Assembly (NCBI GenBank): GCA_025094145.1
Contig: JALLLS010000124.1
Coordinates: 1-64,000 of the forward strand
Direction: 5' to 3'
From: Spinellus fusiger
Lineage: Eukaryota; Mucoromycota; Mucoromycetes; Mucorales; Phycomycetaceae
DNA length: 64,000 nt
Shown here: positions 1-7,510 of the stretch, piece after piece
Numbering within the stretch: the first letter of the stretch is position 1
Layout: each line of letters begins with the position of its first letter
The notes under the pieces: model-generated
The model's database searches: none
Told to the model about the DNA's origin: nothing
What the model saw: only the letters and a program-made list of their open reading frames with translations
Translations under genes and position numbers: made by a program

Positions 1-1360
1 TTGAAGTGTTTTAATGTTTATTCTATTTTTTCAAAAGTTCTCATAGGGTGGCTAAAATGCCCAATGCGCGAATAGCAATCAACACCCATAAATAAAAATA
101 CTTTGAACTGTATATAGAGTCAAAGATACTATAGTACCAGGCAGATATTATAGTACCTGATGTTGTTTTTTTGTCGTGGTAAAAAAAAAACTAAGGTCCC
201 AGAGAAAACCCCCTGAAGTTCAATACATTTAAGATACGAGGATTATCTATATATTTAGAGTAAAGTGATTTTGATAATATATCAACTCTAGAATATTCTC
301 CCAATAAAACTGAACTACACTATGCCACCCACACATCTAAACTACTTGGCATAAGTCAGATGTTCTCAAAAGCTTTTATACCATCTTGTATGACTTTGTT
401 TCTACTAATGTCATATCATATTAACACAGTTTCCAGAACCGGTAAACCCCATAATAGAAGGTCACTGTTCCAATATCCAATATGAGTGCTCATGAGTTCA
501 CTCATATTCTAACCTCCACGTGCTGCTTGGAAAAGACAGGCCTTGTTTGCTTGTTTTGTTTTGTTTTGTTTTAGGGGAGGGCTTACAAGAGATTACGAAT
601 TATTCCAACTAAATGAATTCAAAATACTCATGGAAACACAGGATGTTATGGCCTTGGTAAAGACATGAATAGTTTGTAAGAGAGCATATTAGATCTTATT
701 AATTTTCTAAGGCTTTTTATACCAAGCTTCTTTCTTCTTCTTTCAGAAAGTAGAGAAGTTGTAACAAAGTCTGTTTTTTTTTGTAGTACAGAAATTCTCT
801 GTCCACAGTGAAAGTGCTCATAAGGAGCATGAAAGAAATTCTAGCATTCAGCTTGCTGTTTACAATAGTCATAGTTGTGTATGATACAGCTCGGCGTTAG
901 TATTATTATGATTCATAGCAGGGGGAAGTTTTTTTTGGGGGAACATGTGAATGTGAACAGATTGAGCTAACACGAGGAGGGTAGTGGCTAGAAAATGCAA
1001 AAGATGTGTATAAAAATCTCTTAGCTGATAGTACAAGATGTGAAACAGGGTAATTACTTGAGTGCCCATTCCAACGATTTGGACGCTACATTAAAGACAC
1101 TTGCATTTTTATAATTTTCTACAATTTAAAAAACTTAATTGCCATGATGAGATGGACATTCTAATATTGATTAAGAAATATTTATAATCAGCAGTAACAT
1201 GCTTCAAGATAGTAAAGGCACTTATAGACTACATTTATCTATTTTTATGTCTATTATCTGTCAATATGTTTTGATGGTAGATTCTATAATTTATGATATT
1301 ATGTCCATAGCCACAATAAACACTAACACTACATAAGAGGAAACGAAATAATATACTATA
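1..1360. other. AT-rich flank, possible eroded mariner remainder
   Basis: No gene is supported here. A short T/G-rich run (TTTTG repeats) lies near 550-573. If the Tc1/mariner pseudogene to the right (about 6.69-7.51 kb, minus strand) was split by the Plavaka-like element, its C-terminal half should lie here on the minus strand. Around 1250-1320 the minus strand reads something like a hydrophobic stretch plus Met-Asp, followed further on by Lys-Cys, which faintly resembles the second catalytic block of mariner transposases. It is full of stops and is inference only. Confidence 0.3.
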
Positions 1361-1381
1361 CACACCCAAAGATTTTTCTGG
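1361..1381 (+). repeat. Left terminal inverted repeat of Plavaka-like element A
   Basis: The first 21 bases match the starts of the other two copies except at three adjacent positions (CCAAAG here, CAGGAG there). The outer 12 bases pair with the right end at 6673-6684. Confidence 0.65.
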
Positions 1382-1935
1382 CTTTTAGGCGGTGATATCT
1401 CCTTCCTTTTACATCTAAAAATATATTGCCTTTTATGCATCTGTGTTTAAAATCAAAAGGTTTGCAAGTATCTAAATAATTGTTTCCTTTTGTGGATACC
1501 TCAATATCAAATTGTATTATCAGTAAAATATATTGTTTATGAATAAAATTATTGATGGATAAAATTGTTTATTGTAATAATATAGCTAATAATACTGTAG
1601 CTAATAACATACTATTACTATAGCCACTGCTGTTCTAGGTGTATTCCTTCATAGCAACAGAATATACACCCTAAAAGCCTTGTGCTTTATCCTTGGGAGA
1701 TAGATAACTATGCTCAGGAGTATACTCTAGACAGCCTAGACCGTATAGAAGGAAGAAGATCACCTTGGACTGACTTGAGAAGAGTCTTAACTTATCTAAT
1801 AACAGAAGAGTGTATTAGTAATAGTTCAATCAAGAGAGATAGTATGCTTACCTTTTAGTTAATACTTGTCTTAAGAATAATAAGCCATATGCTATCTATT
1901 AAAAGAAGAGTCAGTACTATGTCTTGTACATTGCA

Positions 1936-2082
1936 ATGAGCTCAAGCCCAGATGATGACACTGCTTACCTTTTTATCTCAAAAATAGCCTTTGGTAGTGT
2001 CTATCACCTCCTTCTATTGTTTTTCTTTGTTAATAACCACACATTACCTTGCTTATTTATGCTCATCTTGACGAGTAATTAA
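1936..2082 (+). CDS. Short conserved ORF of the Plavaka-like family, copy A
   Basis: A 48-residue ORF begins Met-Ser-Ser-Ser-Pro-Asp-Asp-Asp, followed by a hydrophobic segment (LLLLFFFV) and a LPCLFMLIL tail. The same frame is open at the equivalent place in copies B (31575-31742) and C (40180-40347), where it starts about a dozen codons earlier. The three versions differ by amino-acid substitutions but none has a stop. It resembles no family I recognise. It might be a small membrane peptide, a leader, or a chance open frame in conserved noncoding DNA. Confidence 0.3.
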   Translation: MSSSPDDDTAYLFISKIAFGSVYHLLLLFFFVNNHTLPCLFMLILTSN

Positions 2083-2264
2083 GTATCAAATATTATGGGC
2101 AGTGTGAAAAACAACAAAAGAATAACAGATAAAAGAATAAGAAAATATTTTGATTTTGGTGACGTATCACTTTAGCCTCCACTTTCCAATAATTTATTAA
2201 GTCAAAACTCATAAGTCAAACAGCTCACTCTCTTTCCAATTTTTATTTCGAAATCTTTCTTAAC

Positions 2265-5177
2265 ATGTCTTTCACTACCATCAGATTCAAGAAGAATGAA
2301 ATTCCCACCTGCACTGTCTGCCAAAAAAAAATTTAAGACCAAGGGAAATCTGAAATCACACTCTTCTATTCACAACATGTAAGGATAATCTCAAAGAGTC
2401 ATGTTGCTCATTCTCTACTATGAATAGTTCCATGGCCGAATCTTCTTATAGGTATTTATCATAGAAATAGAGGCATAGAATAATAAGAACCAAACTCATC
2501 ATGCTTTATTGCTATTGTTCACAGACCTCTCCCCGCCATCACCACAGTCTTCCGTGTAGAAGAGGAAGGTGATGATGACCAGGAGATAGTTGTTGAAGAT
2601 GAGGAAGTTCTTGAAGAATAACCTCTTTGGGTTACCGGGGAAGATGATTTCGACAGCAGCAACAACACCTTTGAGGAGGCTGCCTCTAGATGATATCTTC
2701 CCATTCTCGACAAAGCTGGAGATGATCATACATCGTTTCTTTACTGAAAATGAGGAACGTATCTCGAGAAGATTTGCAGGGGAGATCATCACCTTGTGCA
2801 AAGATGTAAGAGAGGCTTGTCTTGCCAATCCTCAGGAGAAAGTTCCTGCTTTAAATAGGGTTCTTAACCTCGAGAAGAGGGTGAGAAGCCATGTCCCCAA
2901 GTTCCCCACCACCACCCATAATGTTACAGTGGTTGAAACCTGCAAAGGCTTGCCCCCCACCACCACCATCCACCAGTTCTCTATGAACAAACCCTCCGAG
3001 CATTTGAGGCTGCTCACCACCAACCCCCTCAAAACAACAATGCTCTCTGCCTTGCCAGACAGAACACCTGAACAGAGTGTTTTGCCTCAGCAAGGGGAGA
3101 AATGGAAGACACACCCGCTATTCCGGCACCCAATGGTCACTGTCACCATTAACAACATTTCTGTGGATCTCTGGGTGGGAGATCTAGTATATGCCTCTCC
3201 TGGTGAAAGTGTAACTTCACCATACAAGCTTGCCTCCTTTTTCATGTCAAGCGGTAGATTGATGGCCAACGCCTATGAAGAAGCATCTGGTTTGTCTTCT
3301 GTCAGAAGCATTGTCATTCTAGACATTGTGAAAGACATTCGACTTTCCAACAACACCCACACCAACTCTACCGCCCACCACCCACTCAAAAAATTGCTAC
3401 AAGTACCACCAACCCCAACAGACAGTTCATGCCAGTAAAAACTGTGCCTCTGAACTTGTTCTTAGATGATACAAGTGGCAATACAACCAAAAAGTGGAAC
3501 AAGTTTGAGAGTTGTGTGATGTCTCTTGCGGCAATGCCGTTCAAAGAACAGTGTAAGGTTGAGAATCTGTTCTTTGTCTGCACCAGCAACAAGCTGTCGA
3601 TCACGGAGATGCTCCCGGAGCTTGTGAAAGACCTTGGAGCCTTGGAGAAAGGTGTGGAGATGTTCGATGTGGAGTATGGCGAACCTGTTCTTGTTGTTGG
3701 TGTGGTGCACTTTCTCATGGCAGACAACCCTATGCATGCAGCTGTGGCATGCAGTCTTGGTGCTAAGGCTAGGCTGCCATGTAGAAAGTGTTACTGGGTT
3801 AATGGTGGAAACGCAACAGTAGAGCAGGAGGGAGTGGATGGTGACGCTCATGCAAGAAGAAGAAAGGAGGATCTGGTGGAGATGTACCAGCATTGTGCCA
3901 GCAACCCCAGCAATGCTAGCCTCAGAAGCAACTCTGACACTGGGTACAAGTTGACTGGTGGCGAAGCCCTTTTGTCCTTGCAGTCGTGGGATCCGACCAT
4001 GGATTGCCCAGTGGAAATACTCCACACCATCCTTCTTGGTGTTGCAAAACATCTTGTGGTTGGCATGGTGCCATTTTACGCCGAGAAAGAAGTGAAGCAG
4101 TTGGAAGAAAGATTTTTCAACTACCACTCGAAGGCTTTCACAAGAAAGCACCGTACTCCATTTCGCCTGCGTGGATCTTATCTTGGAAGAGACTACAAGA
4201 TCATCATCCAGCAGATGCCCACCATCCTGTGTGACCTGGTCCAAAGAAGACTTATAAGCAACAATGATTCAAAAGCAATCATCCTTGATTGTTTTGTCAA
4301 GCTTGGTTCGCTTGTATCTCTTCTCTACATGCAGGATATTGAGGCATGTCTGGACATCTATGTGGACAAGGTCAGATCTGCCACAAAAAAGTTGGTTGCT
4401 TCTATCATCATGTATGATGATTTGCCAGCTCCAAGTGCGTCTGCAAAGAAGACGATCATCAGCAACACCTTGAAGCTGCATCTCCTCCACCACCTGTACG
4501 AAGATATCTTGCGGTTTGGTTCACCTGTTTGATACGAAACAGAGAGAGGTGAACAATACAACAAGTTTATCCGAGAACACATACTGCACACCAACAGACA
4601 GTCACCTTCTCGGGATGTTGCTGTGTCTTTTGGAAAGAAGTGTATCTCGACACACATCTTTCAGGGTGGTTACTGGCAGGTACCAGGCCACAGTGGTCTC
4701 TTTACTGCTGGTGCTGAGGTGAAGCTGTTTCAGCACATACGTCCTCTTGTTCTGTCTCGTGAGCTTGCAGACAACAACTGCAGCTCCAAAAGAATAGTTG
4801 TTGGTCTGGCCGGTCTCTTTTTCTTTTTTTCTGGTGCTTTGCCTGTCTTTGGTAAGGTCGTTACCATTGACAAAAGGGAGAATATGGCCACCATTCTTCC
4901 CTACAACTTCCAACTTGTCTTTGGTGAGAATTCAACCACCCACCCTCAACATCTTGCCTTGGCTGCAGGTCCCGATTCTTTCTCTCTTTTTTCCTTGGGT
5001 TTAAAAGATAGCATTGGAAACAATGTTATCTTCCCATTGAACACCACCATTGAGGTAGCCCTCAACGAGATAGTTGTTGAACAAGTCGTAGACATTGTGT
5101 CAATGAATGAATGCACTGTTCTCAACACAAGTAAGTTTGGCTCTCTCTTTTGGACAATGACCACTAGAGTTAATTGA
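2265..5177 (+). pseudogene. Plavaka-type transposase, multiply frameshifted and interrupted
   Basis: This was a DDE-type transposase of the Plavaka branch of CACTA-like elements. The ancestral start is probably the ATG at 2265, followed by a C2H2 zinc finger (CTVC ... H-x3-H). That finger is broken by one extra A in the nine-A run at 2323-2331. An acidic linker follows in another frame, then a long frame carrying SMNKPSEHLRLL and KWKTHPLF (about 2980-3130). Near 3380-3440 the frame shifts again into the catalytic part, with LFLDDTSGN, the CRKCYW zinc knuckle, and PVEILHTILLG. An in-frame TGA at 4530-4532 cuts the frame just before the conserved YETERGEQYNKFIREHILHT block, after which the same frame runs to 5177. 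Domain order and motifs match known Plavaka transposases; the protein cannot be made from this copy. Confidence 0.8.
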
Positions 5178-5892
5178 GTGCGAGTCCCACAATAAATATT
5201 TTTTAAAACATTGTTATGCTGCAAATACTGTGGGCTTAAGGATAACAAATTATGCTAAGAGAAGAATATCGGTGACTGAGTTGTAATTTTGGGGTGATTC
5301 TTGTTCTATTTCTTGTCTTTACAGCCAATTTTCTACTTTTCAATTGCAAAGTCAATTATCTTTGTTCTGATAGGCAGGCAGAGTTTGAAATCAATCATCT
5401 GGACAATAAAAAGGCATTTTCAAACATATTAGCCAATCATAAGAAGATTTTGATTTTATTCTCAGGATATTTCTTTTTATATCCCAAAAATCTTTGGGTG
5501 TGTACAAAGGCTGGTCTAGGGAAATCAAAGAGGGTACATGAACAGGGACACAACACACAATTTGAATACAACGGGTAACTAGGCAACTGTTCTTTAAGGA
5601 ATTCTTTTTTTTTTCTAAAATGTTGTTGCAGTCTGCATTACTTTGGTAGTTCTGATTAAGCAAGTGAATTGTGAAAATTCGTTTTGTTCTCTTCTGTTTG
5701 AATATAAATACCTGCCAATCATAGTCTGTTGTTCTTCATAACTTCTATCCTCTTTAACTTGTTTGTCTTTGTCTGGCATATAAACCAACAGTTGTGATCT
5801 AGTGAGTGTTCGTGCATGTTTATTATGTCTGACATGTTAGTCAGTTTCTATTTTATTTTATTTTATTTTAATAAACCCAGTGAATCCGTTAC
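5178..5892 (+). other. Inter-module region of the Plavaka-like element
   Basis: This stretch between transposase and Fanzor fragment is shared in part with copies B and C. An open frame at about 5294-5578 has no recognisable motif. Upstream exons of the Fanzor gene would be expected here, but no RuvC-I block (DPG-like) could be read in any frame, so the N-terminal half of that gene seems lost or too eroded. A TTTTA microsatellite lies at 5850-5870. Confidence 0.4.
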
Positions 5893-6466
5893 AAAGGCAA
5901 GAAAAATGTGCCAGTGCAAGGGTAATACGACACATACATAGAGTACGTTGATACATCTTGGACTAATTATTTTTACTATTATTTTATTATTGAAAAGAGG
6001 TATTGGCACCTAAAAGGATTTGAGTACGATCCTACCAAGCTGCCAGTTGTTGCTTATGGCACAGGAATAAAGGTAAAAGAGACAGCCAAGTTTAAAGGTC
6101 ATTGTGTTGGTTTGACGAGAGTTTTATATCAATCACTGAAAAAGAGACAAAAAGATGGAGATCTTCTTATGGTTGATGTTGATAAATTTCGAACATCGAG
6201 AGTAAACATGATTGACTTCTCACCCAATATGAAAAGCTCTTCTAACAGTTGTTTTGTTTTGTTTTGTTTTTATTCTCAAGATCTGCCATACTTATAACAC
6301 AAATAACCTCACCGAGGTATTCATAAATTTCAACAATATCCATGCTTGCCAAAGTTGTGGAATTGTTTGGAACAGAGATGTAAATGTATCAAAGAATATC
6401 TATACAATTGCAGAAGAGGGATTAAAGGGTCGCCACCGACAAGCTCCATTCTTTAGAAAAGAATAG
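5893..6466 (+). pseudogene. Fanzor (eukaryotic TnpB-like RNA-guided nuclease), C-terminal fragment
   Basis: Fanzor proteins are eukaryotic relatives of TnpB that cut DNA with a RuvC-like fold guided by an omega-type RNA. Three exon pieces can be read. The first is 5893-5921 (KGKKNVPVQG). The second is 6000-6201, with LPVVAYGTGIK, KFKGHCVG and VDVDKFRTSR. The third, after a 79-nt GT-AG intron at 6202-6280, is 6281-6466 and carries the OrfB-type zinc ribbon (ICHTY ... CQSCG) and the RuvC-III block VWNRDVNVSKNI. Two features suggest loss of function: the first zinc knuckle reads C-x-x-Tyr instead of C-x-x-C, and a Lys stands in VDKFRTS where many homologues have Glu. No RuvC-I is visible. The gene lies just downstream of the transposase in the same orientation and inside the inverted repeats, so it is cargo of the element. 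Confidence 0.72.
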
Positions 6467-6672
6467 GTATTCGTATTTGTATTCATATTATATATCACCA
6501 TATCGAAGTTGGTTTCCTCCGGGATTCAGATATCTACAGGTAAATCTACATAATAATCTTTATTTGTTTAAAAACTAACATGAATACATATTAATTTATT
6601 TTTGCTCCTTTTCAAATCGATGTCATTTCTTAAACAATTATATTTCGACTATTTCCTTTTATATCTTAAAGA

Positions 6673-6684
6673 CCTCCTGGTGTG
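6673..6684 (-). repeat. Right terminal inverted repeat of element A
   Basis: CCTCCTGGTGTG is the reverse complement of the family's left end. It matches the right end of copy C (TCTCCTGGTGTA) apart from one base at each edge. Confidence 0.7.
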
Positions 6685-7510
6685 TAGAGTACTCCTAATA
6701 AAATTGAAATAAGAGCCAGTGACAGTGCTTGTTGTTTTAATTGCTTTGGAGGCAGATACTTTAGAAGCACTTGGTAATTTTTGTTTCTTTGACCAGGCCA
6801 TTGTTTTCAAGTTGATATGAGACTCTGATTCATCAATAAAGACACATTTAATCTGAACATCTACATCGGTCTGTGTCCATCTTGCTATCCATTCATGTAT
6901 CTGTTGTATCTTTTCAGACGATTTTATCTCTGAAGAATAAAAATATGGGTTTTTTGAGTGATAATGTCCATTCATTCGCCATGAACCTATGAATATTTGC
7001 TTGAGAAACATTCAGTCCTTCAAATTGACTTGTTATGCCTTCCATAGCACACTCTACTGTGTTAGAGGGGTTTTTACCCAATGTCTGCTTGAGCTATTGT
7101 TTGTGTTCTTTACTTAACAATGACTTTCTCCCAGATTTCTTCTTTGACTCATCTTCAACACTATTATTTTCTTCAAATCTATCTTTTAACTCCATCTGAT
7201 CCTTCCCCAGTCAATGATAGGCAGTTCTACGAGCAAAGTTCAGTTGCTTTGCTGCTCTACCCACAGTCAACCCTTTCTCATTAACAAGAAAAACAACAAC
7301 AACAACAACAATTCCTTAATGCCATTGCCATATTTTCTGTTGACTTTATTTTAACCTCAAAAATAATTAGAGCTGTTTTGTTTCGCAACTTTAGATTTTG
7401 TCTCATTTTTTGGGTGGTTTTTGTTCAAAATGTGTATCGAAGTCTGTAGCTTTGTCCAAAGGGTATGCTTCTTCGTCTATCTCCATTTGAACAGAGTCAT
7501 GCCCACCTTT
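6685..7510 (-). pseudogene. Tc1/mariner-type transposase, N-terminal two thirds, decayed
   Basis: Reading the minus strand from about 7510 down, several frames together give a typical fungal Tc1/mariner transposase. There is an acidic N-terminus (MEIDEEAYPLD), a helix-turn-helix block (EKGLTVGRAAKQLNFARRTA), a linker with GRKSLLS, and the first catalytic block CVFIDESESHINL preceding AWSKK. Stops and frameshifts (for example near 7210 and 7100) interrupt it. The reading ends at TVTGSYFNFI, exactly at the right inverted repeat of the Plavaka-like element, so the remainder of the DDE domain was probably displaced to the other side of that insertion. It cannot encode an active protein. Confidence 0.7.

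Follow-up and report, generated by a model that had tools for sequence, protein, structure and literature searches.

A transposase and a Fanzor relic side by side in Spinellus fusiger: probable nesting of two elements from one CMC/Transib-like transposon family

Does a single transposon carry both a transposase and a gene for Fanzor, a nuclease guided by RNA, or have two elements come to lie together? The question arises at positions 1361-6684 of a 64,000-nucleotide stretch (here called the window) of Spinellus fusiger contig JALLLS010000124.1, which an initial annotation described as one Plavaka-like transposon with a Fanzor gene as cargo. Searches of the genome of this mucoralean fungus (38.1 Mb, 197 contigs) favor a different arrangement. 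The locus very probably consists of two nested elements from a single transposon family, an inner, transposase-bearing one (1359-5504) lying at a TA inside a Fanzor-bearing one that ends at 6686. The two kinds of element share homologous left ends and TA duplications, and their right ends are closely similar, with two types occurring in both.

The inverted repeats had been thought to bound both genes, but the perfect pair 1359-1377/5486-5504 encloses the transposase alone, and position 6684 marks the right end of the second element. The inverted repeat matches at 19 of 20 positions for 1359/5504, against 14 of 20 for the outer pair 1359/6686. When 1340-6720 was used as the query, the best 35 of 1830 candidates were scored and returned 76 rows besides the window. 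Fifteen of these span 1359-5504 end to end, at least 28 arrive at the right end, and four begin at the 5503/5504 join. Since 28 rows arrive at 5504 and none runs across it, the element family ends there. This right end was detected in 23 of the 30 fetched transposase loci, the window counted. The description of the transposase as a pseudogene holds, the window frame being broken into three open pieces over 2590-5177, with an in-frame stop in the core piece (4530-4532) immediately before the last catalytic Glu. In three other copies (L019, L020, and L026), one frame runs uninterrupted from stop to stop, over 864, 885, and 915 aa.

The stretch to the right of the join, 5503-6686, was found again without the transposase in C117 (two places) and C140. 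One of these three copies (L061) is a 2.1-kb element running from TA|CACACC to GGTGTG|TA without a transposase, and its left 600 bp are homologous, at 76-82%, to 1359-1816 and 1920-2120 at the left end of the transposase element. A survey of 39 fetched Fanzor loci, with the window left out, detected the right end in 38, the left end in 27 (with the exact left start in 15), the 3' tail of the transposase in 19, and the transposase coding region in none; the sole locus without the right end (L045) is cut by a contig end. Homology between the left ends of the two kinds extends over about 100 to 700 bases (70-96% identity), and that between the right ends over 37 nt. TA closes the right end in 37 of 38 rows (37 places), with differing flanks except in the inverted pair L058/L059, and each of the 21 distinct left ends in Fanzor loci has the TA and starts where the left end in the window starts. 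End types TCTTTGGG and TCTCCTGG are each seen on transposase copies (the second on L003, L004, and L028) and on Fanzor copies (the first on L074). Ends of the type found at the right of the Fanzor element number 461 genome-wide (at most one mismatch over 27 nt; control 0), a count of ends and not of Fanzor genes. Because the right end, the left end, the transposase tail, and the TA target recur in this way (38, 27, and 19 of 39 loci for the first three), a Fanzor gene did become cargo of this transposon family, as the initial annotation had proposed.

Some features of the ends stand apart from this argument. Insertion sites show a preference for C-TA-G: of 21 left ends, 18 have C before the TA, and G follows the right TA in 15 of 35 Fanzor ends (38 rows minus 3 excluded) and in 14 of 22 transposase ends (25 minus the excluded window, L026, and L027). 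An argument for composite insertion based on this preference was dropped, as the base before the left TA of the window is A, not C. Two inverted pairs were also seen: L064 328-3022 (C117:290300-293700) comprises two Fanzor elements that share 99.9% identity over 1.1 kb and enclose two left ends, and L058/L059 (C167) have a partly common right flank.

Evidence for nesting at the window itself comes from the join. All but two of 36 rows (34, from 27 of 29 distinct places) share a conserved sequence just upstream of the position equivalent to 5503; the two without it are the window and L046. The conserved sequence is missing in the window; therefore, 5503/5504 is the insertion point, a TA inside the Fanzor element. 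Neighborhood counts were drawn from a transposase list of 106 rows representing 83 loci (best 100 of 182 candidates scored) and a Fanzor list of 300 rows representing 238 loci (best 150 of 992 plus best 150 of 457 candidates), and are lower bounds. Among the loci listed, the window alone has a transposase followed within 6 kb, on its own strand, by a Fanzor, and the other 82 of 82 listed transposase loci have no listed Fanzor in that range. Chance alone would give 0.4 such neighbors at a distance of up to 1.5 kb and 1.6 at up to 6 kb. One neighbor is thus about the chance expectation, so that the pairing at a single locus lends no support to one transposase-plus-Fanzor element. The initial reading of the locus as one such element is not supported by these results, and relatives lacking the Fanzor gene, which the annotation itself had regarded as evidence to the contrary, are what was found at all 82 other transposase loci as far as the lists go.

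A joining of the two genes probably did occur earlier in the history of the family. Two loci (L080 and L081) have the order left end, transposase tail, spacer, Fanzor exons, and right end. Five distinct loci (L031, L046, L057, L079, and L080 (=L076)) leave the right subterminal sequence of the transposase element a few bases short of its expected end and run into new sequence that is similar among them. A genome-wide search for this fused junction gave 366 candidates, of which the best 40 were scored, and 40 of 40 matched at full length with 94-100% identity. At 15 of these 40, a listed Fanzor follows on the same strand no more than 2.5 kb downstream, against an expected 0.3. In the mechanism that we propose, one transposase would cut and paste both kinds of element, the Fanzor-bearing ones in trans. 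The collinear deletion derivatives suggest an ancestral copy in which a Fanzor gene had joined downstream of the transposase. Starting from a nest like that of the window, the inner right end of this copy would then have been shortened by its last few bases, and the copy would next have moved by its left end and the Fanzor-side right end. The transposase body would have disappeared from the fused lineage, which multiplied into many copies, and the Fanzor 3' part may persist because it adjoins the right end. The parts of the window locus are collected in Table 1.

Table 1. Parts of the nested locus, in window coordinates.
Feature	Positions	Strand	Remarks
Transposase-bearing element, CMC/Transib clade	1359..5504	+	About 4.1 kb; target-site duplication TA; perfect 19-bp inverted repeat
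Left terminal inverted repeat TACACACCCAAAGATTTTT	1359..1377	+	The TA in it is the target duplication
Right terminal inverted repeat, transposase element	5486..5504	-	Pairs 19/19 with 1359-1377
Transposase, N-terminal open piece	2590..3438	+	Open frame; possible BAH-like fold, residues ~176-273
Transposase, core open piece	3279..4532	+	DDTSGN, ADNP.H, and CRKC present
Transposase, C-terminal open piece	4533..5177	+	YETERGEQ..N, with the last catalytic Glu inside
Second, Fanzor-bearing non-autonomous element, right-hand remnant	5503..6686	+	Same family; left side cut by the transposase element
Fanzor C-terminal exon A	6001..6201	+	YWHLKG...VDKFRTSR; Glu to Lys in the window copy
Predicted intron GT...AG	6202..6280	+	Predicted from sequence; GT...AG in 32/41 copies
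Fanzor C-terminal exon B	6281..6466	+	ICHTY...CQSCGIVWNRDVN...; second zinc Cys to Tyr; stop 6464-6466
Right end, Fanzor-bearing element	6650..6686	+	Homologous to 5468-5504

Directly to the right of the Fanzor element, a minus-strand frame at 6687-7011 gives a weak, sub-threshold match to TNP-like_RNaseH_N (PF21787, E 0.06). Judged by eye, this frame may be a cut-off Tc1/IS630-type transposase.

The transposase appears, by the tests available, to be CMC/Transib-like, with the fold of the immune recombinase RAG1, and not Plavaka; the earlier Plavaka label found no support from Pfam or from the termini. The family displays the CMCT pattern of D, D, C(2)C, H(3-4)H, and a last E. In P0002, D262, D348, C367-x2-C370, H608-x3-H612, and E629 are nearly invariant over 49 sequences, and matching columns are present in an alignment of 36 sequences headed by a Spinellus copy. 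Judging from the pattern given in parts of PMC12730594, these columns probably represent the catalytic and zinc residues. A RAG1/Transib-like fold was found for a relative of the window transposase, and the termini TA|CACACC...GGTGTG|TA fit the CMCT definition of 5'-CA..TG-3' ends with a duplication of 2-5 bp. The TA duplication and the RAG1-like fold agree with a possible placement in ESTA (EnSpm-like with a TA duplication). The N-terminal piece showed a weak structural match to a BAH-like fold in a low-confidence model. Plavaka is not supported because its profile PF18759 matched none of three window pieces and none of three long-frame copies from the genome, and because Plavaka termini are TGT..ACA (A) or CATCA..TGATG (B) according to the same portions of PMC12730594, whereas this family ends in CACACC..GGTGTG. 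Among 36 relatives, PF18759 was found in 1 (E 0.005) versus Transposase_21 in 5. A search of the whole genome with the Plavaka profile gave no match anywhere, and its controls were silent too, which makes it uninformative; a sequence search of the PDB with the transposase profile returned C2H2 zinc fingers alone.

The C-terminal frame downstream is, on sequence grounds, best described as a Fanzor relic. A spliced frame on the same strand with KFKG, FRTSR, and WNRDVNVSKNI is there as first described, but the zinc ribbon is retained only in part. The assignment as Fanzor-type was upheld by profile search: the frame at 6236-6463 matches PF07282 (Cas12f1-like_TNB) with E 2.8e-5 and 24.6 bits, just below the cut-off of 26.3, and a same-genome relative (P0077) reaches 27.9 bits, above it. 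Sequence matches of the Fanzor frame in the PDB are weak. Copies were scored for the pattern E-x6-CxxC-x(12,18)-CxxC-x(4,8)-D, as given in passages of PMC10711439, and the full Glu and zinc pattern is present in 3 of 41, all three among the 10 chosen by PF07282 score. The window copy falls outside it, with E changed to K and C to Y, and its frame has neither RuvC-I nor the N-terminal half.

The RuvC-I half survives in relatives. The Fanzor1 signature applied here was an Asp (DPG in most Fanzors) 120-160 residues before the Glu. P0077 has GVDLG, with DLG at RuvC-I and the D 133 residues ahead of the rearranged Glu, while P0079 (GVDPD), P0080 (GVDPN), P0081 (AIDPN), and P0082 (GIDPN) have the DP and lack the G. 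The RuvC-I exon region matched 50 exon rows, and by our count 18 loci cover the RuvC-I stretch itself. In L082, the only fetched RuvC-I locus, the Fanzor exons continue into the right end of the family. The nuclease thus appears real as a family, with the fetched copies mostly worn down to the last exons. With the 3' part alone preserved and the full catalytic motif gone, most of these copies are best understood as hitchhiking relics that would have moved in trans. Help from Fanzor in retention or spread, as suggested in the initial annotation, is conjectural. Upstream of the Fanzor exons, L082 (C13) also holds at 330-1385 a 1.06-kb, internally deleted relic of the transposase family with perfect 19-bp ends, and the frames between this relic and the exons may be of the LINE (long interspersed nuclear element) type, judged by eye. 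P0080, P0081 (the latter from Basidiobolus ranarum), and P0083 (Rhizopus microsporus), which are relatives of the RuvC-I half from further early-diverging fungi, have no Pfam match above cut-off, and P0083 extends into the part that resembles the Fanzor piece retained in the window. At the right end, a search for an omega RNA gave 18 consensus pairs with one double change and a covariation term of 0.09, hence no covariation support, and Rfam returned no match in this region.

Several observations speak against the nested reading and the history proposed for the family. The flank to the left of 1359 does not contain the expected upstream half of the Fanzor element; by local alignment, 107 to 245 of 300 shuffles were as good, and in a test anchored at the TA, 25 of 1555 control TA sites scored as high with a 26-nt flank, an uncorrected hint, as did 56, 118, and 330 with flanks of 20, 34, and 50 nt. 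The host-element half is unseen there; therefore, either it was lost by deletion or 1359-6686 has moved as a hybrid-ended unit. Moreover, the coverage of the lists is capped at the best-scoring candidates, no copy with both genes intact was found among the listed loci, and movement in trans is inferred. No listed Fanzor accompanies 25 of the 40 scored junctions. Of the 461 right ends, 100 were listed, and only 41 of those have a listed Fanzor exon in the 700 bp upstream. Among the 38 Fanzor loci whose upstream sequence is long enough, 3 lack the left end as well as the transposase tail.

The missing left half is also what would be predicted if 1361-6684 were a single transposon with both genes, moving now or once by its outer ends. 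This is rather unlikely, despite the TA at both outer ends, the dispersed elements with the same mix of ends (L031 and L039; left CCCAAAGA, right TCTCCTGG or CCTCCTGG), and the fusion lineage, which shows that such a composite did amplify. The inner right end of the window is intact and is the usual end of the family, the other 82 listed transposase loci have no listed Fanzor in the 6-kb range, and A precedes the left TA, where C is the rule. Furthermore, a genome search with the joined flanks found no empty site: nothing matched across the join, and besides the window there were only two right-flank matches (61 and 64 nt). That the two are unrelated transposons with position alone in common agrees with the near-chance frequency of the pairing, but it is very improbable given left and right ends homologous over the lengths reported above, the same TA target, and a transposase tail inside 19 of 39 Fanzor loci. 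There is likewise little chance of a split system of RAG1-like transposon and Fanzor built on the shared ends, in which a few fuller Fanzor genes would act in trans and the hundreds of truncated elements would supply right-end guide RNAs, so that empty sites are cut and the end family persists.

The nature of the Fanzor piece allows other readings as well. A retained, working small protein, such as a right-end RNA binder or a regulator, would explain why the piece recurs at no fewer than 238 loci and why the ratio of nonsynonymous to synonymous substitution (dN/dS) of exon A is 0.44 in frame versus 0.70 and 0.99 in shifted frames. However, the copies were chosen by protein similarity, which lowers dN, and exon B gives no signal (0.56 in frame versus 1.17 and 0.49 shifted). 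Stops interrupt exon A in 10 of 41 copies and exon B in 19, the rearranged Glu is retained in 20 and the first zinc CxxC in 21, and the frame is without RuvC-I and the N-terminal half, all of which makes a working protein quite improbable. It is hardly credible that the frame encodes some other zinc-ribbon protein: the window frame alone falls below the Pfam cut-off and PDB matches are weak, but P0077 exceeds that cut-off and has its RuvC-I D at the distance given above, the Glu and zinc pattern is found in three copies, and GVDP, AIDP, or GIDP occurs in relatives. The preferred explanation thus remains a nest of two related elements, with a Fanzor relic in the outer one.

Comparison with known systems places this family among Fanzor-carrying transposons and sets it apart in its host clade. 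In the parts of Bao & Jurka 2013 (PMC3627910) considered here, a Fanzor1-type gene is described in Mucorales transposons (ROr-4, PBl-3, and MCi-4) that are bounded by terminal inverted repeats and have no transposase; unlike those elements, the present ones have CMC/Transib-clade ends and TA duplications, and their own genome contains a candidate partner transposase. Passages of PMC10711439 add hAT and Crypton as host transposon types. The terms EnSpm and CMC (or CACTA) have no occurrence in the main texts of PMC3627910, PMC10711439, and PMC10432273, and no word beginning with "Fanzor" or "Mucor" was found in that of PMC12730594. Among the works that the literature searches found, PMC12633428 alone contains both "Fanzor" and "EnSpm"; no Fanzor host of the CMC clade turned up in the literature searched, and a prior mention elsewhere is possible.

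Sections of Kojima 2025 (PMC12730594) describe, for fungal EnSpm/ESTA/Plavaka elements of the CMCT clade, 5'-CA..TG-3' ends, a 2-bp duplication, the signature D-D-C(2)C-H(3)H-E, and RAG1-like transposases, all alike here; cargo capture (TET/JBP) is known there, and the cargo here is Fanzor. The Spu-1/'ghost' loci of Spizellomyces punctatus, in the portions available of Saito et al. 2023 (PMC10432273), comprise a few fuller Fanzor copies amid more numerous gene-less right-end elements, as in Spinellus. According to the same portions, a right-end RNA is demonstrated there, whereas no structure is supported here, and no transposase was found between the Spu-1 ends, whereas most of the fetched transposase loci of Spinellus show the right end of the family. 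Per the literature searched, the CMC/Transib (RAG1-like) clade joins the transposon types with a Fanzor gene, and a nested insertion, with subsequent loss of the inner end and movement of the fused unit by hybrid ends, offers a plausible route of capture. Because a candidate partner transposase can be named in the same genome, which transposase moves Fanzor elements becomes directly testable. As far as the papers searched show, Fanzor1 cargo in a DNA transposon is a known kind, and what is new is the host clade together with its candidate partner transposase.
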